Assembly: GCA_031763025.1 (NCBI GenBank)
Contig: JASSKH010000015.1
Span: 992,001-1,056,000 of the forward strand
Direction of reading: 5' to 3'
Source of the DNA: Macrocystis pyrifera
Lineage: Eukaryota > Sar > Phaeophyceae > Laminariales > Laminariaceae
DNA length: 64,000 bases
Part shown: positions 1,550 to 14,470 of the stretch, one piece after another
Layout: every line of letters begins with the position of its first letter
How positions within the stretch are numbered: position 1 is the first letter of the stretch
The notes under the pieces: model-generated
What the model was told of the DNA's origin: nothing
The model's database searches: none
What the model saw: only the letters and a program-made list of their open reading frames with translations
Program-made: the position numbers and the translations under genes

Positions 1550-1827
1550 TGTTAAGATCAAGCTTGCAGGACACTTTGTATCCCTGGACAGGTCTGCCTT
1601 TTAAGCCGGTAATCGTTGTACTCACGTGTGTTGTTTGCTTAGCTATAGAAGAAGAGCAGGTTTATTCCTGTCGTGCACGCGGAGACTGAGACCAATCTCG
1701 TGCGTCTCTGGAAAACCCCTGGTTTTCCCATCTAAGATACGCCTTCCAAGTACTGCAAATACGTTCCCAGTGACTGAACCCAAGTAGTTACCGGGCTTTC
1801 AACCTCATACAAGGCAGTATCATAACA
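1550..1827 (-). repeat. 3' LTR (in element sense)
   Basis: Starts TGTTAAGATC and ends ATCATAACA on the plus strand. It pairs base for base with 11858-12134, with scattered substitutions and one C indel in the GGTTTTCC hairpin arm. Read on the minus strand it contains AATAAA (GGAATAAACC), a likely polyadenylation signal. An earlier boundary would need homology left of 1550, and there is none. Confidence 0.93.
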
Positions 1828-2397: not shown

Positions 2398-2883
2398 TCA
2401 GCTATCCACGGCGGCACTTCGAGATTCATCTACGTTACGCTGGACCCTCCGTGTAAACGCGCTAGCCAAGTGAATTTGCAGACACCAAGAACCTCGTACA
2501 GCTCTCGTCAAAGTCGTGTAGCGCGCCGGAGAAAGAGGAAGCTTGATTGGCCCCGGGTCGTCCAAAAATCGAACCAAATATACTCCATCCGTCCGTGTAG
2601 TTGCGCTGATTTTCCCGAGCCACCACAGACCATCGTCGCCCTGGTACCAAAAGTGGGCCCCGTTGGGAAGTACAGTGTTGCTGTGTCGGCGGAGCCAATC
2701 GGCGTGCGATACGCAACCATAGCCGGGTGCCAGAAACCGCTCGCCGTTACTCCGAGAAAGCTCCCGTTGTGCCGCGCCAATTCTCATTCGGCGATACAGG
2801 CGGTTGGTTTGGCGGTGTTGGTTCGGGGTGTCGGTCCAGTAGCGCAAAATTGCGTGGCGAGAAGCTGAAGGTCCATTTCCCAT
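2398..2883 (-). pseudogene. Gypsy Pol C-terminus: end of chromodomain and Tudor-like module
   Basis: This frame continues the integrase/chromodomain frame after a shift near 2868. It opens with HAILRYW, the usual last helix of a chromodomain. It then carries GAHFWYQGDDGLWWLGKI followed by GVYLVRFLDDPG, the beta-barrel pattern of a Tudor/Agenet-like fold: aromatic cage residues, a Trp pair, then Val-Phe-Asp-Asp. The frame ends at the stop at 2398. Tudor-like modules bind methylated lysine or arginine, so together with the chromodomain it could steer integration to modified chromatin. That role is inference. Confidence 0.7.
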
Positions 2884-5405
2884 TCCCAGGATGGCCGGGA
2901 TAGTCCCTTCCAGTGTGTCTCGTACATCACCGCGATGACGCCACCTCGATCTCTAACCGATTGATGTCCAGTAATCTTTTCCACTTCGAGTCGTTCAAGA
3001 GGGGTCGAAAAGTCGTCCTCGGTGACAATGTACGGAGGGGATTTCTTGGAGAAATTGTTGAGCACGTATTGCGTCAACCCCGCCGGCAAATACTTCGGCA
3101 TGTCGCCGCGGTCGTGGGGGTTGGCACAGGGCTTGCAGCGTTGAACAGATACGCGCCGGCGAGCCTCAGCGCCGGGCATATCGGAAGGAATATCCAAATG
3201 CAGGAGCTTTGCTCCGAGAGGAGATCCATCCGGGGTGTCCGCTGAGGAGCAGGGGCCAACTGCGAGAACTTTGTAGGGGCCCGTCCAGTTGAGTGAGAGT
3301 TTGGCCTTGAAGACCTTGGCGTCCGTGTCTGGTTTCGCGCCCTGGCGGATGGTGGCCGCCGTATTGTACACCCACACCCAACCACCAACGTCAAATTTGG
3401 GGACCGGACGCAGAGCGTCGGAGAGGGCGGAGTTGCGGCGGTTCACGCGAGCGACAGTGAGGGCGTGGTGTTCTCGAACGATTTCGTACGCGCGCTGCTG
3501 GCGGTCCGTCGCCAAGTCGCAGTAGGCGAGGTGGTCGCGGGCCAAGCTCTGGTGGCCGGCGACTCCAGCACGTTCGAAAATCGTGAGTGGGAGGCGTGGG
3601 AGCCGACCCATATGTACCTCGTTGGGAGCCAGACCCGTGGCGGCACTGACGGAATTGTTGTACGCAAATTCGACGTGAGGGAGATGTTCATCCCAGTTGT
3701 TTTGGAGCTCGTTGACGACCATTGCCAACATCTGGGCCATCGTGTGGTTTACACGTTCCGCCCAACCGTTGCCGTTTGGGTGGTAGGAGCTGGTGGCAAT
3801 TTTTCGAAGCCCGAGAAGCTGATATACGGCGTGCGAAAGCTTGGAGCAGAACTGGAGGCTGTTGTCCGAGAGGATGCTGCGCGGGCACCCCCAGAGAGGG
3901 ATATACCGGTTGATGAGAATGTTAGCCGTGCTCTCAGCGGTGAACTCGGCCGCTGTGACGGCGTACATGTCAGCTCGGCGGCTGAAACGATCAGTGAAAA
4001 GCAAGATGTAGGTATTACCTCGAGGCGTCACCGGGAGGGGGGCGAAATAGTCGATGCTGACGGCGATGCCGGGCCCTTCTGGCAAGGGCAACGTGATGGA
4101 GGGCCACCGGACTGTCTGCCGCGACGTTTTCCGTGCCTGGCACTTTAAGCAGTTGCGTAGCCACCGCCGGGTGCAGATGCTCATGCCAGTCCACCAGTAG
4201 AAACGTTCGAGCATACGTAGGATGCGCGCGGTTCCTAGGTGGCAGGAAGCCGTAGAATGGCAAGCCTGCATGACCCAGGGGCGCATGAGCAGCGGAACAT
4301 AAATGCGAATAGGCTCGTCGTTCAATAAGCAGGCCGTACGACCCACCGGGCGTGGCGTATCCAACGCAGGGGGGGAGGACGACTGTCGGACAAGTAGAAC
4401 GATGCCCGCGTCAGTGGTGTGCAAGCGGCCTTTGGTGGCCAGCTCTTGAACTTCCGAAAAGGGAGGGCGCTGGTGGGAAAGGAAACCTGATAAAAAGTCG
4501 TCTGGCAAAACTTCCGGTCGGCCAAGGGCTATGTAGCGCATGGCGGCATTGCACGCGGGCTCAGCCTGTTGTTCCCGAGCCCAGTCAGCGTGCGAATGGC
4601 GCGCTGCGGAATCACCGAACTGAAACTCGGCAGCTGCGCCGAGGGCGTCCAAGTCGGTCGAGGTGACGGGAGGTGCGTCAGTTGGCGGCGGAAGTCGTAA
4701 AAGAGGAGTTCCCACGGGCTCGGTGCGGTCGCGGCCGGACGGGATGGGTACCGTCGGGACGGACGAAGCGGCAGGAGTCGGGGACAAAACGACGGGAGCG
4801 GACGGTCGCGGCCGTGGGGCTCGCAGCGGGGTGATAGCACGCCGGGCTGATGGTCTAGGGGTCCCGCCGGGCCCGAAGCCATAATCAACAGCAGGCGGCA
4901 CGGCGGCAGCGGCGGCGGCTGTTCGTCGGCGCATCCGCGATGAGATGCGGCCTGAAGACGGCAAAACGTTCGGAGGCGCCGGGTTGCCAGGCGGCGATGG
5001 GGTAGACGCGGCCGGATCAGTGATCACGGCGGAATCTTCGAACTGTAAAGTGCTCGTCGGGGGAGGAGCACGCTGGGCGACAATCGTCGCTGCAGCGGGG
5101 GCTTCTGCAGAGCCCTGGCATGCGAGGGAAGACGCGGCCGGAGCAGTGCTCACGACGGAATCTTCGACCTGTAAAGTGCTCGTCGGGGGAGGAGCACGCT
5201 GGGCGACAATCATCGCTGCAGCGGGGGCTTTTGCAGAGCCCTGGCCTGAAAGGGAAGACGCGGCCGGAGCAGTGCTCACGACGGAATCTTCGAACTGTAA
5301 AGTGCTCGTCGGGGGAGGAGCGCGGTGGGCGACAATCATCGCAGCAGCGAGGGCTTTTGCAGAGCCCTGGCCTGAGAGGGAAGACGCGGCCGGAGCAGTG
5401 CTCAC
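2784..5405 (-). pseudogene. Gypsy integrase with 42-residue repeats and chromodomain
   Basis: A long frame of 873 residues. The first 130 or so are three 42-residue tandem repeats (core SQ/SGQGSA, MIVAQRAPPPTSTLQ). A Pro-rich linker follows, then integrase: the HHCC zinc finger HSTASCHLG ... CLKCQARK (about 4145-4265), the first catalytic Asp in VSIDYF, the second in SDNSLQF (about 3850-3870) and the catalytic Glu in NGWAERVNH (about 3735-3765). The chromodomain is at about 2870-3010 with VEKITGH, YETHWKG and SWEWE. All three DDE residues are present. The true N-terminus joins the RNase H frame; the two are separated by a 1-bp insertion at about 5515. The upstream start seen here is only a frame artefact. 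Confidence 0.9.
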
Positions 5406-5640
5406 GACGGAATCTTCGACCTGTAAGGTGCTCGTCGGGAGAGGAGCACGCTGGGCGGCAATCGTCGCAGCAGCGGGGGCTTCTGCAGAGCCCTGGCCTG
5501 AGAGGGAAGACGCGGGCCGGAGCAGTGCTCACGACGGAATCTTCGACCTGTAAGGTGCTCGTCGGGAGAGGAGCACGCTGGGCGGCAATCGTCGCAGCAG
5601 CGGGGGCTTCTGCAGAGCCCTGGTCGCCCCCGGAGGGTAC
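5015..5640 (-). repeat. 126-bp tandem repeat inside pol, about five units
   Basis: Unit starts on the plus strand are at 5015, 5141, 5267, 5393 and 5520. The spacing is exactly 126 bp three times, then 127. A unit codes for 42 residues rich in Ala, Pro, Ser and Thr. The 127-bp spacing comes from one extra G (GCGGGCC instead of GCGGCC near 5515), which shifts the frame between RNase H and integrase. Such Pro/Ala-rich linkers are probably flexible spacers. Confidence 0.95.
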
Positions 5641-6393
5641 GACAAAAACCGAAGCGAAAGCGGCGTTGGCGGGGGGTGAAAAATCCCCCAAGCCAGGACG
5701 GCGGTCGACGGTGGCGACGGAGGCAGATACACGAGCGACGAATCTCCCCGAAGGAGCAGAGAGGTCGTCAATCCTCATACGTGGCCCGTGTGTGCGAAAA
5801 TCGCGAAAATCCGAAGGGGCGGGAGGTAGCCCACCCAAGACGGCATTTTCACTGCGGGACACCAGCCCACCCAAACCGACACCAGGGGTCGGCGAAGAGC
5901 GAGTGCGAAGCCCGCAGGCTCCGATGAGGAAGATACCACCGTCCTCGACGGGGTTGAGGCAGCTAGACCCACTGCGGTCGTGTTCTGTGGCGGGCTCTGG
6001 CAAGCGGGAGAGAAAGTCAGCATTTCCGTTGGCGCTGCCCTTGCGGTACTTGAGGGTGTAATCGAACGCGGTGAGGAACTCGAGCCACCGCTGGACTCGC
6101 GCGTTGTGGTCCCCTACTTTGGCGATACTCTCAAGTGCTTTGTGATCCGAAAATATTCGAAACTTCGTGCCCCACAGGTAACCTCGGAGTCGTTTGATGG
6201 CCCAGACAATGCTGCCAGCTTCCAGGTCCAACGGTGTCCAGTGCCTTTCGGAATCGAGGGTAGCGCGGCTGATATAAGCAATGGGCCGTACCGAGCCGTC
6301 CGGTTGTTCTTGTTCGAGCGCGGCACCGAAACCGTCGATGCAGGCGTCGCAGTACACGTGGAAGGGGCGGGAGCCGTCGGCTACGGCATCTCA
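5521..6393 (-). pseudogene. Gypsy RNase H domain and linker
   Basis: The frame is the same as the RT frame upstream and is separated from it by a single TGA at 6391-6393. Ribonuclease H residues are visible: the first Asp in VYCDACIDGFGAAL, the Glu in DLEAGSIVWAIKRLRGYL, the Asp in FSDHKALE and the final Asp in GNADFLSRLP. This matches the normal gypsy RNase H layout. The domain removes RNA from RNA-DNA hybrids during reverse transcription. A Ser/Pro-rich linker then leads into the 42-residue repeats, where the frame is lost. Confidence 0.88.
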
Positions 6394-8910
6394 GTCAGGG
6401 AAGACCAAAATCGGTGGGGCCGCAAGCTCGGCGAGGATCTGGCGGACGATAACTTCCATAGCCGGCGTGAAGACATACTTGACCCCCTTCCGGAGAAGGG
6501 CGGTGAGAGGACGTATCCGTTTAGACAGGTCGGGCAGGAATTTGCGATAATATCCTACGCCGCCCATCAGGGCGCGGACCTGCTTGAGGTTCTTGGGCAT
6601 GGGCATTTTCAGCAAGGCCGAAACTTTTTCCGCATTTGGGCTTATACCCGCGGGCGAAATAGAATGGCCCAGAAAATTGGCGTCCGTGGCGCCGAGGCGA
6701 GCCTTCGAGGGGGAGAGCTTGAGGTTGTGTTTGCGCAGGCATTCGAAGAGGGCTCGTATCGTCTTGACGTGGGCCGTCGGGTCAGAGTCGAAAGCGATCA
6801 CATCATCAAGGTAGGCCGCCACTTGTGCCAGGCCTTTGATGACTTCGTTAATCACTTTGACGAACCAGCCGAGCGAAGCACTGCTGCCTTGGGGCATGAC
6901 GATCCACTCGTAAAGGCCCGTGGGAGTGCAGAACGCCGTAAGAGGGACGGTGTCCTTGTGCGCGGTAATCTGGTGGAACGAGGAGACCAAATCGAAGAGG
7001 GAAAACACCCGTCCCTTCCCCAGGGAGTCGAGGACTTGGTCCACGCGAGGGATAGGCAGCTGGCTGAGTTTGCTGATCTGGTTGAGTTTTTTGTAGTTCA
7101 CGGTGATCCGAACGCCTCCAGACTTCTTCGGGATGACCACCAGCGGGCTCGAGTACGGGGAAGTCGAGTGCTGGATCAGACCTGCCGCTAGGTACTGATC
7201 CAAGGTGGCCTCCACTTCCTTGGCCAGGATGGGGTCCATGCGGTGCGGCCTGGACGTGACAGGAGCGCTTCCTTCCGGGACCGAGATCACGAAAGGCATC
7301 AACGAGCAGGAACCAAAATCCGACTTGGACTTCGAGAAAACGTCAGGAAATTCGCAGAGAACGTCCCCCAGCTGTTCAATGACCGCAGGGGTCCAGCCTG
7401 TGCCGTGGAGATCAAAAGCCACTTCCCGCAGATGTGTCGGCAAGCGTGCCCAGACGCGCAGGAACGAAGCGCGCTGTTCTGAGGTCAAACGCTCAAGCAG
7501 TGCAGGCGAGGGCGAGGCTTGGGCTGCGAGGGGGGGGGGGGCAGTAACTGCTGAAACCGGACACACCTCACCTAGTCCGGAGGGAGGGCTGGGGCCTCGG
7601 TTGTCCTGCTGCAAAACGTCCAGCGGGACGCTCAGCAGTAGGGCGTGGGCGACGCCGAGGACATCCCCCGGCTCGAGAGCCGCCACTCCAACGAGGGGAA
7701 GAACCTGTCGTCCGGAGGAGACGGAGTGCTCCTCGACCGAGGGTAGGTCGGGCTGGGGCATCATGTCGACCAAGTAGTGTCCAGTGAGGGCCGGGGAACC
7801 ATCGCTTCGAACCAAATTAACAGCAAGCAGCTGGAGATCGTCGGACAGGGTGACGCCTGCTGCGCCCTCGTAGCGTAGATGGAAGCCTCCACCCGAAGCG
7901 GCGGAGTCTATGGCGTACACGGACATGCCTGTCGGGGCGTGGTGAACTAACTCCAGCTCGCCAAAAATGCGTTGATCAGACGGCCGAGGTGGCAGAGAGC
8001 GGTAGGAGCGGCTATTAAAGCGCATCCAACTGTCACGTCCCAATAGTACAGCATGCTGTATCGCTGAGGGGGGGACCACGCAGGCCCAAACTGCGAGGGA
8101 GCAAGTAGGCTCATTTTCTCGAAAAAATTGGACGCTCAGGCGCACACTCGTCGAAGTCTTCAGAGGGGCCGATTCGCCAACCCCCCCCCAAGAACGAGGG
8201 GCGCCTTTCTGCTCGCACGCGAGGGATGCCGCACCAACCGAGTGCATGCGATCCAAAACATCTCGTCGGATGAAAGTCTGCGGGGAGCCAGTGTCAAGAA
8301 GCGCCACGCAACCAAAAGGTGCAAGAACGCCAGCTCCGCTGTGAATCGCGATTTTCGTCGTAAAAGAGGCGTCATCGAGGGTAATGGTGCCCCCGACGAG
8401 GCAGGGGCCGTGTTCTGGCAGCGCGAGGGAGGGGTCGACACTAGGTGCGACAGCCAAAATCTCGGGGATGTGATCAGCCGGTGCGTCAGAAAAATAGGTC
8501 GAAAACTCCAAAGAAGGACCTGGGCAAGCGCGGGTCACGGCCAAAGGGCGGGGCGGCGCTGGTGTAATCTCATGAATTCTGTCAGGTCTGGTTGGGGTGC
8601 AGAATTGATGAGGAGAGGCGGGGTGTGCCAACCCGGCCTCACTTGATCGGATGGTGTCGCGAACGGCGGAAAGAGCTTTACCGAGCAATTTTTTTCCATG
8701 CCACCGAGAGGGGTCGTGAGCTTGGGGGTCGTCTGCCCGCAGACCGATGCCCCACACGGCATCAAAAGGGCTGGCTTCAGCCAAAATTTTGGTGCCAGTG
8801 CTCAATAGGTGCTGCTTCATGACCGAGTTCTGCGAGAATTTGGCAAAATTACCAGCAAGGACGGCGTCTTCCCGAACACGGTCCCAGATAGCGCAGTCGA
8901 AGTTATGCAC
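6391..8910 (-). pseudogene. Gypsy Pol: NADAR C-terminal half, aspartic protease, reverse transcriptase
   Basis: An 839-residue open frame in three parts. Residues 1 to about 90 are the C-terminal half of a NADAR domain (NFAKFSQNSVMKQHLLSTG, EASPFDAVWGIGL, WHGKKLLGKALSAVR). A linker follows, then a retropepsin with the catalytic triplet in ALLDTGSPQTFIRR (about 8264-8310) and the flap-side motif HAVLLGRDSW. RT occupies the last 330 residues: GLIQHSTSPYSSPLVVIPKK, RITVNYKKLN, PQGSSASLGWF and the catalytic YLDD in AAYLDDVIAFD (about 6800-6825). Active-site residues of protease and RT are intact. The frame ends at a TGA just before RNase H. The start is not a true initiation site, since the polyprotein begins in Gag. 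Confidence 0.92.
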
Positions 8911-9109
8911 GCCTCGACCGAGGCGTTTGTGCTCGCGTGGGCCTGGCCATAATCCGCTCCGCTGTGCCGTGGTCCTGGAAAAGGCGAGCCTTTTCAGCCA
9001 TCATATACTGCTCCGCGCAGGAATATGATACATCGTCGACGACAAAAGACGAGGGGGACCACTGCGAAAAATAAGAGGGGGGCTGCCAGAACAGTACCAC
9101 CCGCTCCAT
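8650..9109 (-). other. NADAR (YbiA-like) domain embedded in the retrotransposon
   Basis: Two adjacent frames make up one domain. The upstream half (9109-8903) has YFSQWSPSSFVVDDVSYSCAEQYMMAEKARLF and ERIM. The downstream half (from about 8933) has RLGRGVHNFDCAIWDR, KFSQNS, LLSTG, EASPFDAVWGIGL and WHGKKLLGKAL. These are the conserved blocks of the NADAR/DUF1768 family, including the Glu-Gln-Tyr, Lys-Phe-Ser-Gln and Trp-Gly-Ile-Gly signatures. Known members cleave N-glycosidic bonds of riboflavin intermediates or act on ADP-ribose. A one-base shift near 8915-8930 separates the halves, so this copy is broken unless the shift is translational or an assembly error. Confidence 0.88.
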
Positions 9110-10099
9110 TGTATACTCGAGAGTAGGGTCAAAAACCGACGGTGCCGAGTCGTCGGTGGCCGCAGTTGCGGCGTGTGGGGGGGGGAGTGTGCTTCTCTAA
9201 GAACACTGAGCCCCTGGTGCACGAGACGAGTCCGGTTCCACGTATACTGGCTCTGTGTCACCATTGCCCGTAGGCAAAACATCGCCAGAAGGTTCTCTTG
9301 CTGCGCCCGATGATCTCTGTCCTGGACCAAAGGGGGCAGGGGGCTCTGAGCCCGTTCTGCTTGACGAGAGGTGCGATTCTTCCGAATTTAACGGGTATGC
9401 TGTCCCGTTGATCTGACCGGAGGCCGTGGAGTCACCACTGGCTCGACGGACAGTGCCAGGTTTTTCCTGTTCCACTGGAGCCGAAGGAGCGCTGCGCACG
9501 TGGAGTGGCGTGCGCGAAGACGAAAGAGGGCCTGCAGACCCTGTAGACGTCTTCAAGAACGGTGCTCGGGTGGGGGGCAACAAAGGTTCCACCGGAGAGG
9601 GCTTCCGTCCTGTAGACCTGGTGGGGAAGGGGGACGAGGTAGCTAATCTTGTCGACTCCTCCTTGATAGGAAAAAGGGTGGAGCGGCCACCGTTATTGCG
9701 AGGAAACGCCGAGTCGAGCTTCAACCGAGATCTCGGGTTTAGGTGTTTGCCTTCCCGCTCCTCAAACCGACCGCCACCGCATGGCCGGGAGGTGTAGGAG
9801 GGGGGCAACCTCGCTGAAAAAAAACGACGCGACGCCGCGACACTCGTCGTGTTGCGCGGTGCGTGGTTTGGGAGAGAGGCGTTTATCGCGCCTGCTCTCG
9901 TGCCCAGGTTGAGGGGAGCGGCGTTTGAGGCGCGGGCTCCCGACGTCGGGGAAGGCGCCCGAGGGCTCCCCGGAGAAAGCAGTGGAGCTGAGTCGCTGCG
10001 TCGGTCCGAAGTACGGAGTAACGCGCGGGGCGGGAGCGGAGTACTGAGTGAGCCTGGGACGCGAGCATCTTGTGAAATCAAGTTTTTTTCTCCCGACAA
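8903..10099 (-). pseudogene. Ser/Pro-rich Gag-Pol linker leading into NADAR
   Basis: One register stays open from 10099 down to 8903 except for a single TAG at 9197. The first 300 residues are Ser/Pro/Arg-rich and without a recognisable fold. The part after the TAG reads into the N-terminal half of the NADAR domain. The register differs from those of Gag upstream and RT downstream. A run of nine G at about 9178-9186 is a likely indel site. Confidence 0.6.
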
Positions 10100-11199
10100 T
10101 GCTGGCGGCGGGCGGTTAGGAGAATCCGAACCGCCGTCGACCTGTCAGTTACCGGCGCGGAAGGTGCCTGGCTGGCGTCCATTCGGGTTTCCGCCCGAGG
10201 TATGCGAGGCACCGTAGCGAACCCCCGAGACGGGAGCCGGGGCGGAAGAGGTAGGGGCGGCCGAACCACCATGATGGCCGGAGTGAGACTGCTGGTGTCC
10301 TCGTGCCGCGTGTGTGTTGTAGCCATCACCTTGTCTGTGTTGCTGAATTGGCCGTGATGTTGCCCACGCGAGTGGCCGGGACGACGCCTGTGTTTCTTCT
10401 GGTTGTATTTGTTCGGTCGTGAATTGTTCTCGCGGCGGTGTCTGATCATGCGTTCTTGCCACCGACGGAACGCCTCGCCGTCGTCGCCGAGCGTTCCGAG
10501 GTCGGGGTTCAAGATACCACTGAGGTTTAAGAAGGGGTGTCTACACTGTCGAAGAGAGTGTGTGTCTTCGTGACAGTTTAAACAGCGTCCTCGGTTTTCG
10601 CTGAGAGCGGCTGCGCGAGCGGACGAAGAAAGTAGGGCGCTCCAGAGGGGAGGGTCCTCGGTCTGGATGGACATGCAAACGGCGTGAGCTTCGGCATAGT
10701 GGTGTTCTTCAAGGGGCCAGCAGTTGGAAGAGGTGTCAAGCCACGGGTCGAGGCAGTCAGGGATGGATTTGTGGACATTCATCACAAGCGGATTATTGCG
10801 CGATGCCGTCTGCCAAGAAGGCGACTGGGGAAACGTCCGGCCCTGGCCGCGACCAATATTGGAAGGGCCGGGTCCTCGACGGGGCGGATGACCGCGCACC
10901 TGTCGAAGAAGCAGGCAAGAAAAATATTTTTCGCCGTTGACGGCAGGTGTCTTATTATTCGCAAGAGTCTCGAAAGCTAACCACATGGCGTCCAAAGTGC
11001 CGAACGGCCTCGATACCGTAGCCAAAACTCCCGGGTACAGCGTCGGCATCAAGCTGGGGTACTGCTCGTTCACTGCCATCCGAACTACCTCCAAAACAAC
11101 CTCCACCCCCGGTGCCAAAACACGCTCAGTCCCCGTCTCTGCGGACACCACCCCTCGCAATGCACGACTAAAATCGCAAAAAGGGGTCCCGTTAGCCAC
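10078..11199 (-). pseudogene. Gag C-terminal part with CCHC zinc knuckle
   Basis: Holds CLNCHEDTHSLRQC, a C-x2-C-x4-H-x4-C nucleocapsid knuckle (about 10542-10586), followed by a basic Arg/Lys/His-rich segment suited to RNA binding. The upstream part (residues 1 to about 120) is acidic to neutral and resembles a capsid C-terminal region without a specific motif. The frame overlaps the N-terminal Gag frame in another register at about 11085-11199. Both cannot be used as they stand, so a frameshift is likely there. Confidence 0.8.
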
Positions 11200-11857
11200 G
11201 CCAAATCATGCAACTTGGTGTAGCTGCCCCCCGTGTTGGTGCGGTCGGAGTGGTTGCTCAGCAACCTCAGGAGGAGCGTGAACGCCTCCGGTCCCGACGA
11301 TTCTGCTGCGAGGGCACGCGACACCTGTCCAAAAAAATCATCCATCAAGGTAGTGAGAGGGGCGGTCGTACGCTTGTCAGGCGTGATGGCGCGCGCGAAG
11401 GATTTCTTGAGAGGGTACTCCCAACCGGGGATCCAATTAGTAGAACTAAGGCCTTCATGGCTGCCATCGTTGCACATCATGAGAATATCACAGGCGGAGG
11501 CCTTGACCGAACGCGTGAGTTGCTGCGCGGCCTTCGTTGTGGAGAAGGCGAGTGGAAGGTTCTCCGCTGGGGCCCTCGTCTTGGCGGCCCGACTGGTCTT
11601 GGAGGAAGCAGCAGCCCGGGCAGTCCGCAGCGCTTCACTGGCTCGAGATATGGAGTCTCGCGCGCAAGAGGCGGAGCGAGCGGCTTCCTCGGAAGCCGTG
11701 GCGGCAGCCGTGGCGACGGCGGCGGCGGCCGTGGAGGCGCGGGCGGCAGCTGCAGCCGCGAGCTCGGCCGACACACGCGTCTGCGCTCGACGACTAGCCG
11801 TTGTCGTCGAGGCAAACCGACAAAAAAGCGGAAAAGTCCTAAGCCGTCGACGCCACT
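11085..11857 (-). pseudogene. Gag N-terminal part
   Basis: An open frame that runs in from the 5' LTR. It starts with basic residues, then a long Ala-rich helical stretch with coiled-coil character (about 11640-11800), then a globular part (WIPGWEYPLKKSFARAI, LMDDFFGQVSRALAAE). Position right after the primer-binding site and ahead of the zinc knuckle makes it Gag. An ATG inside the LTR would also fit, so the start is uncertain. Confidence 0.7.
11838..11855 (-). promoter_or_regulatory. Primer-binding site of the LTR element
   Basis: Two bases after the 5' LTR the sense strand reads TGGCGTCGACGGCTTAGG. It begins with TGG, complementary to the CCA end of a tRNA, as expected for minus-strand primer binding. 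The predicted primer tRNA would end ...GTCGACGCCA. I cannot name the tRNA from the window. Confidence 0.75.
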
Positions 11858-12134
11858 TGTTAAGATCAAGCTTGCGGGGCACTTTGTATCCCTGGACAGG
11901 TCTGCCTTTTATGTCGGTAAACGTTGTACCCACGTGTGTTGTTTGCTTAGCTACAGAAGAAGAGCAGTTTTATTCCTTTCGTGCACGCGGAGACTGAGAC
12001 CAAGCTCGTGCGCCTCTGGAAAACCCCTGGTTTTCCATCTAAGATACTCCTTCCAAGTACTACAAATACGTTCCCAGTGACTGAACCCAGGTAGTTACCG
12101 GGCTTTCAACCTCATACCAAGAGGTATCATAACA
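11858..12134 (-). repeat. 5' LTR (in element sense)
   Basis: Pair of the repeat at 1550-1827, with TG...CA ends. It should hold the promoter of the element. The hairpin GGAAAACCCCTGGTTTTCC is kept in both LTRs. Confidence 0.93.
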
Positions 12135-12234: not shown

Positions 12235-14470
12235 CTACTTTCTATTCTTGAATCTTAAGCCGCATCCAAGCTCCATCCCCACGCCATCGGTGTCTGGGTC
12301 TGTCATCACCCCCTCTCTGCTCCTTCTCGATTCCTGTCGACCCCTAAGCTGGAGTCTAAATCGCGATACCCTCCTCGAAATGGCGACCTGTGTAGTCACC
12401 GAGACGATTAGGAGTAGGCGTTCCTTCACCAATTATTTCCTTCCCATCGATCCACCATCCCTCCCCCCCATGACACTAGCTGCCAGCTGGTCGATGAACT
12501 TACTGCCCTCTACCCCGAGACGCCCAAAGCTTTCCACTGCTAAAGTGGCGAGTTTGTGACTCCGTTGTCAAAGGACACATGTCCCGGACGAGCGTACTGT
12601 TGGCACTTGCGCGCCTCGGAGGTAGAGGCAGCTGATCCATCGTGATCGGCACAGCCTCCTTGCAGGTGTATCTGCGCTTGGGGGTCAGCATGGGTGACGT
12701 CCAGCAGGATGGGCTTCCTCCTATACTCCCTACTAGGAGCATCCCGAAAACCTCCTCTCCTGACGACAATGTCCATCCGCAGATTTCGGTCTGCCGTGAA
12801 CGGTTCGCCGCTTTCCACTTGGTGTGGAATTCCCGGCCGTTTCAAAGTACGGGATATCGCGTAGACGAGCGGTTGGTGTTGCTTGTGCCCCTGCTCTGGT
12901 ACAGATGCGTGCGTGGCGAGTGTCCACGTCAGCTGCATCACAGCAGGGGCACCTCACGGCCACGTGTTCCTCTATCCCAATGAAGCGCCTTCCCATGCCC
13001 ACAAACTCGTATGACCCGGGATGAGTCCGTTGGTCTCGCCCGAAGGCATGCCGTGGCTCCTGTCCCCTGTAGGCTCCTATAGCGAGCCTTGGCGAGGGCT
13101 TTGGTTTCGGTTCCCCCCGTCGGGTCGCCCGGTCCGGGGGGGCGCGCTGTCTCCGGGAGCTCCTCCAGCGAGGCAGCGTGGGCTGCGTGCCGACGTTAGT
13201 TTACCAGGTTGCCCAACTTCTGTTGGACTTTGCGTGAGTTCGTGGTTATGGCGTCGTGTGCAGCCAGCATGTCGGCCTCTGGGGGTCTTGTGGCCAGGTC
13301 CCCCTCTGCGCCTAGACCCCATTCTATCCAAGATTCGGGGGCGATGCCCGCCATCGCCTCCTTCGTTACCCCCCATGTGTCCCGAATCTCCCGCAAGCTG
13401 TCTCCCAGCTGAGCAATGATCCTCGATTCTGGGAGCCCCCTCTTCAACTTATCGCCTACCGGGCCTGTGAGGTCTGCCAGGACCTCCGGCAAGGTCCCCA
13501 CCCTGTTTCCGATGGAAGCCGACATTCTCCTTGCTTCTGTCGACGGCAGCCCCAACCCTCCCGCTACCGTAGAAAGGCGTGCTTGGGCTTGCTTGTAAGG
13601 TTTGAGAGTCAGCCGACGATCCGGGGACAGCTCCTAGAAAAATGGTTGTGCCTCCGCTGCTCCCGGTAGTTCAAGGATTTTCTTCTACTCCCATTGCGCT
13701 CCGTTGTCTGCTCTTTTACATGCTTCGAGGGACAACCCCAGTTCCAGAGCCCTTTCGAGGTAACTCGTCCGTTGCGCGACAGATTCGACGGTGATGAGGG
13801 CCGCCGCTTGTTTGTCGGGCATGTTAGCGAGCCAGCGCGCAAGGTGGTCCGCGCCCCCATCCCTCACTGCCTCCAATGCTCGCCCCCACACGTATTCTTC
13901 CGTGCCGATCGGGACACCCACCACCGTCACCCCTCCTTCGTCTGCGATGCGGACCTCAACGCTTTCAAGGAGCGAAATTTCCCCCATCGTCAGGGCGTGC
14001 CCTTTTGGTGATAGCGCCACTGTTTTGGCGGCGTTGACCACAATACCGATGTCATCTAGCTCTCGTCGGAGGAAGGCCAATGCTCTAATCGTGTTGGCCG
14101 TGATCCCTGTAAGGCCGAGAGAGGCATCGTCCATGTACGCGAAGGCTTCCATCCCTTCTCTCTCGAATTCCTGCCGGAATCGCTTCAGCCCCGGTCGCAA
14201 CGCCATGCAGAGCATTGCTGGTCCCATGGGGTCCCCTTGCTGGACACCGCTGGAGCAAGCGATCGTCCTGGTCTCTCCTGAGTCCATCCGGAAAAAACAC
14301 ATCGGCTGGTCTTGTGCCATAGCACTTGGCCACTAAAGGCGTGAGCGCTGGCACGCATTTTGCCACCTCTTCTAGCACCGCTGTCCTTTTCATGGTGTTG
14401 AAGGCGTTGGAGCAGTCCGTGAGAACAAGCCAGTTGCCCGTCTCGTGTAGCATCCTAGCCCTCAATAGCT
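12235..14470 (-). pseudogene. Non-LTR retrotransposon remnant: RT, CCHC finger, possible restriction-like nuclease
   Basis: Pieces in several registers follow one protein order on the minus strand. From 14465: WLVLTDCSNAFNTMKR (first catalytic Asp of RT), then SSGVQQGDPMGPAM and AYMDDASLGL (YMDD) in 14320-13685. About 13555-13196 is a helical linker. About 12995-12930 has VRCPCCDAADVDTRHARIC, a CCHC finger. Then come ISRTLKR, RMDIVVRRGG and RKPILLDVTHADPQ (about 12870-12640), and VKERLLLIVSVTTQVAISRRV near 12410. An Asp followed by LLDVT after a CCHC finger resembles the PD-(D/E)XK endonuclease of R2/CRE-like LINEs. At least five frame changes make it a pseudogene. It is truncated at its 5' side. 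Confidence 0.75.

Follow-up and report, generated by a model that had tools for sequence, protein, structure and literature searches.

A NADAR domain carried between Gag and protease by brown-algal Ty3/gypsy retrotransposons looks to be kept by selection

What might a retrotransposon gain from an enzyme domain, and does the domain belong to its Pol or only to one copy? These questions are raised by the minus strand of the window (the whole 64-kb stretch of DNA analysed here), which holds a single copy of a Ty3/gypsy LTR retrotransposon carrying a NADAR domain (Table 1). The first-pass annotation had named six NADAR motif blocks and placed them at 8650–9109, between Gag and protease. All six are present on the minus strand; the profile match puts the domain at 9091 to 8647, close to that span, and it sits between the CCHC knuckle and the LLDTGSP motif, with reverse transcriptase (RT), RNase H and integrase following. 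The Pfam check proposed for the two half frames also bore the annotation out: against a PF08719 gathering cut-off of 35.1 bits, frame 8903–9196 scores 49.4 bits (profile positions 2–69 of 163) and frame 8535–9000 scores 111.9 bits (positions 55–163). Because each half frame alone exceeds the cut-off, a chance match is ruled out. In a PDB search the second half hit chain 8bau, whose deposited name is NADAR domain-containing protein (E 3.1e-12), and the first half gave no significant matches.

Table 1. Features of the NADAR-carrying element, in window coordinates.
Feature	Position	Strand	Evidence or remark
5' LTR, TGTTAAG...CATAACA	11858..12134	-	repeat detection, LTR-LTR alignment
Primer-binding-site-like sequence (TGG...), 2 bases past 5' LTR	11838..11855	-	sequence inspection only
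Gag region	9200..11857	-	open frames 11088-11969 (into LTR), 10081-11205, 9200-10144
CCHC zinc knuckle CLNCHEDTHSLRQC, nucleocapsid part of Gag	10543..10584	-	pattern C-x2-C-x4-H-x4-C
NADAR first half, with E of AEQY and K seven residues on	8933..9091	-	PF08719 E 7.9e-13
NADAR second half, other frame, with KFSQN, EASPFD..WGIG and LLG motifs	8647..8973	-	PF08719 E 4.9e-32
Aspartic protease, motif LLDTGSP	8032..8304	-	Asp_protease_2 E 0.2, below cut-off
Reverse transcriptase	6658..7134	-	RVT_1 E 1.1e-24
RNase H	6064..6372	-	RT_RNaseH E 4.1e-31
Tandem array, 4.9 copies of a 126-bp unit (42 codons)	5000..5623	-	RNase H-integrase linker
Integrase H2C2 zinc part	4125..4295	-	E 6.7e-12
Integrase rve core	3777..4073	-	E 3.9e-06, below rve cut-off
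Putative C-terminal chromodomain	2874..2987	-	Chromo E 0.012, 16 bits, below cut-off 25.1
3' LTR	1550..1827	-	repeat detection, LTR-LTR alignment

By its structure the carrier of the domain is a Ty3/gypsy element. Two LTRs with TG...CA ends surround the coding region; both start with TGTTAAG and end with CATAACA as read on the plus strand, and they differ by 18 substitutions in 277 aligned sites (K2P 0.068). ATAT stands at both outer LTR flanks, possibly a 4-bp target duplication, though the sequence there is of low complexity. The order Gag-protease-RT-RNase H-integrase is present, with Gag recognised by its zinc knuckle (a Pfam scan of the Gag region gave no family above cut-off) and protease by the LLDTGSP motif together with a position common to relatives. 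Among the matches listed, the closest RT relatives are algal Pols, some of them with gypsy domain order. One of these, P0179 from Ectocarpus sp. CCAP 1310/34, holds NADAR, RT, RNase H and integrase, is 70% identical in the RT region, and as annotated runs from NADAR to the C-terminus without the protease stretch; it aligns to the window element in successive frames, and its alignment continues past the putative chromodomain through 2419, with a frame change. Beyond the 5' LTR lies a second RT fragment (13688–14332, minus strand; RVT_1 2.3e-9), which looks like part of a non-LTR element.

The window copy of the element is dead: Gag is open in three frames, the NADAR domain changes frame, an in-frame stop at 6391–6393 parts RT from RNase H, and the reading frame shifts again within the tandem repeat array. 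The frames were analysed as they stand in the sequence. The frame change within NADAR is real and located where the halves overlap, at about 8933–8973. Since the DNA matches of 39 other copies in the host's own genome are 461–465 bases long, against 458 for the window, the break is minor damage to this one copy, not a trait of the family. A programmed frameshift inside the domain is ruled out, as other copies of the same family read it in one frame.

The first-pass annotation had allowed that NADAR might be a chance insertion in this copy alone. A search of the host's own genome (537,376,219 bases in 223 contigs) instead gave two diverged families that carry NADAR ahead of a protease motif, and the many copies there, together with the database relatives described below, rule out a one-copy insertion. 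PF08719 drew 1264 first-look candidates, and all 150 that were scored pass the Pfam cut-off; a stop lies inside the match in 24 of them and 126 are stop-free, a proportion in which intact copies are over-represented because the scored candidates were the best ones. With the window's NADAR DNA as query there were 493 first-look candidates, and the 40 scored included 39 other copies at 96–98% identity. The LTR gave 3601 first-look candidates, of which 40 were scored, yielding 40 full-length matches at 94–100% (window LTR counted) and one 44-base piece at 93%. The excess of LTR over NADAR-DNA candidates at first look suggests that the genome contains many solo LTRs or shortened copies. The second gypsy family has NADAR and then the protease motif, and its NADAR protein is clearly diverged. 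Within set B (20 copies, L130–L149), L130, L131, L132, L147 and L149 resemble the window's family; in the stretch examined, LLDTGSP lies in the NADAR frame in 12 of the other 15. In 15 of the 20 set B copies the KF.QN motif has histidine in place of its asparagine, possibly a change of specificity.

Database relatives place the domain in a wider lineage. A query of NADAR plus protease returned 54 proteins, with a NADAR match in 41 of the first 46, some of them incomplete (P0001 is only 44 residues long). P0047–P0052, except P0050, are bacterial-type proteins with NADAR present and LLDTGSP absent; these five (P0047, P0048, P0049, P0051 and P0052) are 515–546 aa long, and in them NADAR is N-terminal and followed by a long unnamed C-terminus that, by eye, looks sigma-factor-like. 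The RT query returned 520 proteins, and 27 of the 120 listed have NADAR residues. Within single predicted proteins, NADAR and RT occur together in P0004, P0010, P0179 and P0195. Among the matches listed for both queries, the algal ones with a named organism come from Ectocarpus sp. CCAP 1310/34. IMG/VR contigs held no retroelement Pol by the patterns used; for NADAR alone they gave 14 viral loci, eight of which were taken as tree rows, and prokaryote contigs gave 77 NADAR loci under bacterial titles.

Carriage of NADAR is widespread among these Pols, with exceptions. Of 92 proteins with a near-complete RT from both queries, 21 have NADAR and two do not (P0054 and P0228), the other 69 starting too late to be judged under our length rule. 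The RT tree has 49 rows: the window, all 23 informative proteins and 25 late starters out of the 69. NADAR carriers occur on both sides of its deepest starred split. P0228 stands next to one group on a long branch. P0054 falls within a group of carriers, where its lack of NADAR looks like a deletion or an effect of the gene model; the presence and absence labels require at least two changes on this tree. Where the protease motif lies at least 260 residues into the protein, NADAR is present in three of four proteins listed for the RT query and missing from P0228; P0050 and P0053, with the motif 300 and 370 residues in, have no NADAR match ahead of it. Because P0228, P0050 and P0053 have room for the domain yet lack it, NADAR is not indispensable in every relative.

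Is the domain then kept by selection? Between relatives it is about as conserved as the protease. Median pairwise identity across 16 sequences is 51.3% for NADAR (91 pairs), a value depressed by the inclusion of P0054, which lacks the domain, against 50.3% for the protease region (105 pairs), 53.9% for RT (45 pairs), 66.7% for RNase H (15 pairs) and 22.6% for the linker (118 pairs). In paired comparisons NADAR identity exceeds that of the linker by 23 points (90 pairs) and falls short of the protease region by 4 (78 pairs), of RT by 10 (36 pairs) and of RNase H by 24 (15 pairs). We also compared copies from the host's own genome, 36 of 40 of which can be read through 140 or more codons without a frame change; L119, L120, L123 and L127 were left out as rows, so that copies with a broken NADAR frame are excluded. 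Among the 16 copies of the window's family, whose 120 pairs are not independent, median dN/dS is 0.48; it is 0.19 for pairs with dS of 1.5–5 (154 pairs, a further 161 being saturated).

A test of purifying selection, which the first-pass annotation had called for, gave signs of it. Relative to a mutation-type-matched neutral model, the ratio of observed to expected N/S in the window's family is 0.54 for NADAR (16 copies, 120 pairs), a moderate value; over 72 pairs each, the linker gives 0.59 and the protease 0.60. In a disjoint-pair test (20 random pair sets, 500 simulations), the share of simulations at or below the observed N had a median of 0 and a worst value of 0.03 for NADAR, 0.016 and 0.65 for the protease, and 0.06 and 0.84 for the linker. 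The linker thus comes near NADAR in its pooled ratio and is weaker in disjoint pairs; the deep comparison parts the two clearly, the recent one weakly. The domain might nonetheless be an inert passenger, a fragment of a host gene amplified along with the element, as could be read from the broken window copy, the stops in scored copies and the three Pol relatives without NADAR. We consider this very improbable: NADAR matches the protease in conservation across deep divergence, each of the 20 random pair sets has fewer non-synonymous changes than the neutral model predicts, and the domain is kept in two diverged families. NADAR looks to be kept by selection in these elements, as judged from their sequences.

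In the NADAR of E. coli C7, K95 is essential, E88Q is inactive and E88A has a slight effect in vitro, and both NADAR subfamilies, including an oomycete YbiA-type protein, hydrolyse guanine-linked ADP-ribose (PMC11543638, in the parts consulted); the hallmark of the YbiA type is a glutamate in the last strand (PMC11125620, likewise). In the window element the glutamate of AEQY and the next lysine are seven residues apart, as are E88 and K95, and we read the glutamate of EASP as the probable YbiA-type last-strand residue. The features of the YbiA subfamily are thus divided between the halves, with the pocket glutamate and lysine in the first and the EASP glutamate in the second. Among 41 database retroelement NADARs, several of them incomplete, rows with a letter at the position have the lysine in 36/36, the AEQ glutamate in 29/32 and the EASP glutamate in 37/40; in the 36 one-frame copies from the host's genome the counts are 36/36, 34/36 and 36/36. 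The predicted catalytic positions are mostly retained. We think it unlikely that the elements keep the domain for structure or binding, such as holding nucleic acid or ADP-ribose or spacing Gag from protease, and not for catalysis. The domain does sit where Gag meets Pol, so that spacing can be important, and the asparagine of KF.QN, otherwise well kept, is histidine in most of set B; against this, the pocket glutamate and lysine and the EASP glutamate are among the best-kept positions in the 36 copies, and the adjoining linker diverges freely between relatives, at 23% identity.

We suggest, with somewhat better than even confidence, that a YbiA-type NADAR is a regular part of Pol in a Ty3/gypsy lineage of a stramenopile, most likely a brown alga to judge by the nearest relatives, and works as an ADP-ribosyl hydrolase on the element's nucleic acid. 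Synthesised in constant proportion to Pol, the domain would enter the particle or be freed close by, and would take ADP-ribose off guanine, or remove a related ADP-ribose adduct or product, in the RNA or cDNA of the element itself; reverse transcription and integration would thereby be kept unblocked. We favour this substrate because NADARs hydrolyse guanine-ADP-ribose and because RNA viruses carry NADAR in polyproteins with their polymerases, as far as the parts of those reports consulted show. The first-pass annotation had proposed that NADAR could strip ADP-ribose marks set by the host, or act on NAD-derived signals, and had taken its position to suggest packaging with Pol; the removal of host marks and the packaging are inferences here too. 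As to an enzyme that would write such marks, a search of the host genome for DarT gave no matches (its control was found in 1 of 14 control genomes) and one for PARP gave a single exon match (control in 0 of 14), searches that genes with introns may escape. This counts against the proposal.

The main rival to an element-nucleic-acid hydrolase is a role in which NADAR processes the element's RNA, or free ADP-ribose or an NAD-derived molecule, instead of guanine-ADP-ribose set in defence. We hold this to be a substantial though less probable reading. In the parts consulted, PMC12477816 proposes processing of the RNA intermediates of transposition, and PMC9503650 argues that NADARs can act on small ADP-ribose derivatives, including those of RNA repair; the failure of the DarT search to find a match points the same way. 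On the other hand, the published activity of NADARs on nucleic acid is guanine-ADP-ribose hydrolysis (PMC11543638 and PMC11125620, parts consulted), and the sequence gives no hint of a small-molecule substrate.

From where did the elements obtain the domain? A NADAR-only query returned 2341 proteins, of which the best 120 were listed, and we built a tree of 73 chosen rows, with only the second half of the domain standing for the window. One side of a split at 93/74 holds the retroelement NADARs, P0057 and five separate NADAR proteins (brown-algal P0061, P0063, P0067 and P0091, plus P0076); Tribonema comes next at 87/80, bacterial rows lie around, and neither split is starred. Among the matches listed, the four brown-algal proteins and P0076 are the closest non-retroelement kin in the tree. 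They are 209–252 aa long, apparently stand-alone as judged by length, and lie outside any Pol, whereas the retroelement NADAR lies within it. Four of the five (P0061, P0063, P0067 and P0091) have an N-terminal Cys/His stretch, possibly a zinc finger, that is absent from P0076; a Pfam scan of P0061, P0063 and P0091 matched no family there. Topology tests, on groups defined after the tree was seen, did not reject a retroelement clade without the host rows (p 0.33) and gave p 0.0535 for bacterial and retroelement rows together without them. On the tree and these tests, the origin with the better, though moderate, support is an exchange of the domain between the elements and a host gene of a stramenopile. 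An earlier bacterial source of the whole NADAR group is possible, as is direct bacterial transfer to the elements, along the lines of the horizontal acquisition that PMC12477816 suggests as possible. The best 150 of 1403 candidates in the host's own genome included no clear orthologue of the separate brown-algal NADAR (top identity 59%), a gene that introns could hide.

That a retroelement has kept an enzyme domain over such deep divergence is a sign that it profits from some chemical step. The fullest version of the argument, in which brown-algal gypsy elements captured a stramenopile host NADAR and use it inside Pol to strip guanine ADP-ribose from their RNA or cDNA, is one that we offer as a long shot. 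If true, brown algae would have a eukaryotic defence not described in the literature that we examined, in which retroelements are held in check by ADP-ribosylation of nucleic acid. Should NADAR remove ADP-ribose from nucleic acid, brown algae would become a testable case of ADP-ribosylation in transposon control, and the stop-free copies among those scored are enough for selection and specificity to be measured well.

Known systems offer several likenesses, which we draw from the parts of the reports consulted. Positive-strand RNA viruses likewise have NADAR in a polyprotein with a polymerase, and differ from our element in lacking LTRs and integrase (PMC9503650); the words retrotransposon, retroelement and gypsy are absent from the main text of that paper. 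Orchid Ty3/gypsy elements that encode AlkB, an m6A demethylase, have also gained an enzyme able to strip an RNA modification, and a link to host surveillance has been proposed for them, but theirs is another enzyme, in an extra reading frame, in land plants (PMC9289625). Among the literature matches listed for NADAR or YbiA in retroelements, only PMC12477816 (Genome Biol 2025) reports such a case. It describes a YbiA-type NADAR in Tx1 LINEs of Crassostrea gigas, there in ORF1 of a non-LTR element in an animal host and described as divergent, and an Ectocarpus Gypsy lineage with NADAR, Gypsy-12_Ec32. The NADAR-gypsy arrangement is therefore already known from Gypsy-12_Ec32, to which we liken our element by description, our sequence comparison having covered database proteins of Ectocarpus. 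A C-terminal chromodomain behind integrase belongs to the description of that lineage; the match at this place in our element scores 16 bits against a cut-off of 25.1. That paper, in whose main text Saccharina, kelp and Laminaria go unmentioned, considers the domain possibly horizontally acquired, blastp outside Ectocarpus having given almost only bacterial hits; in contrast, the closest NADAR kin here, among the matches listed, are brown-algal proteins outside Pol. To the published account, in the parts consulted, the present analysis adds a different genome (537 Mb), evidence of selection that is absent there, and a tree that joins retroelement NADARs with the separate NADARs of brown algae.
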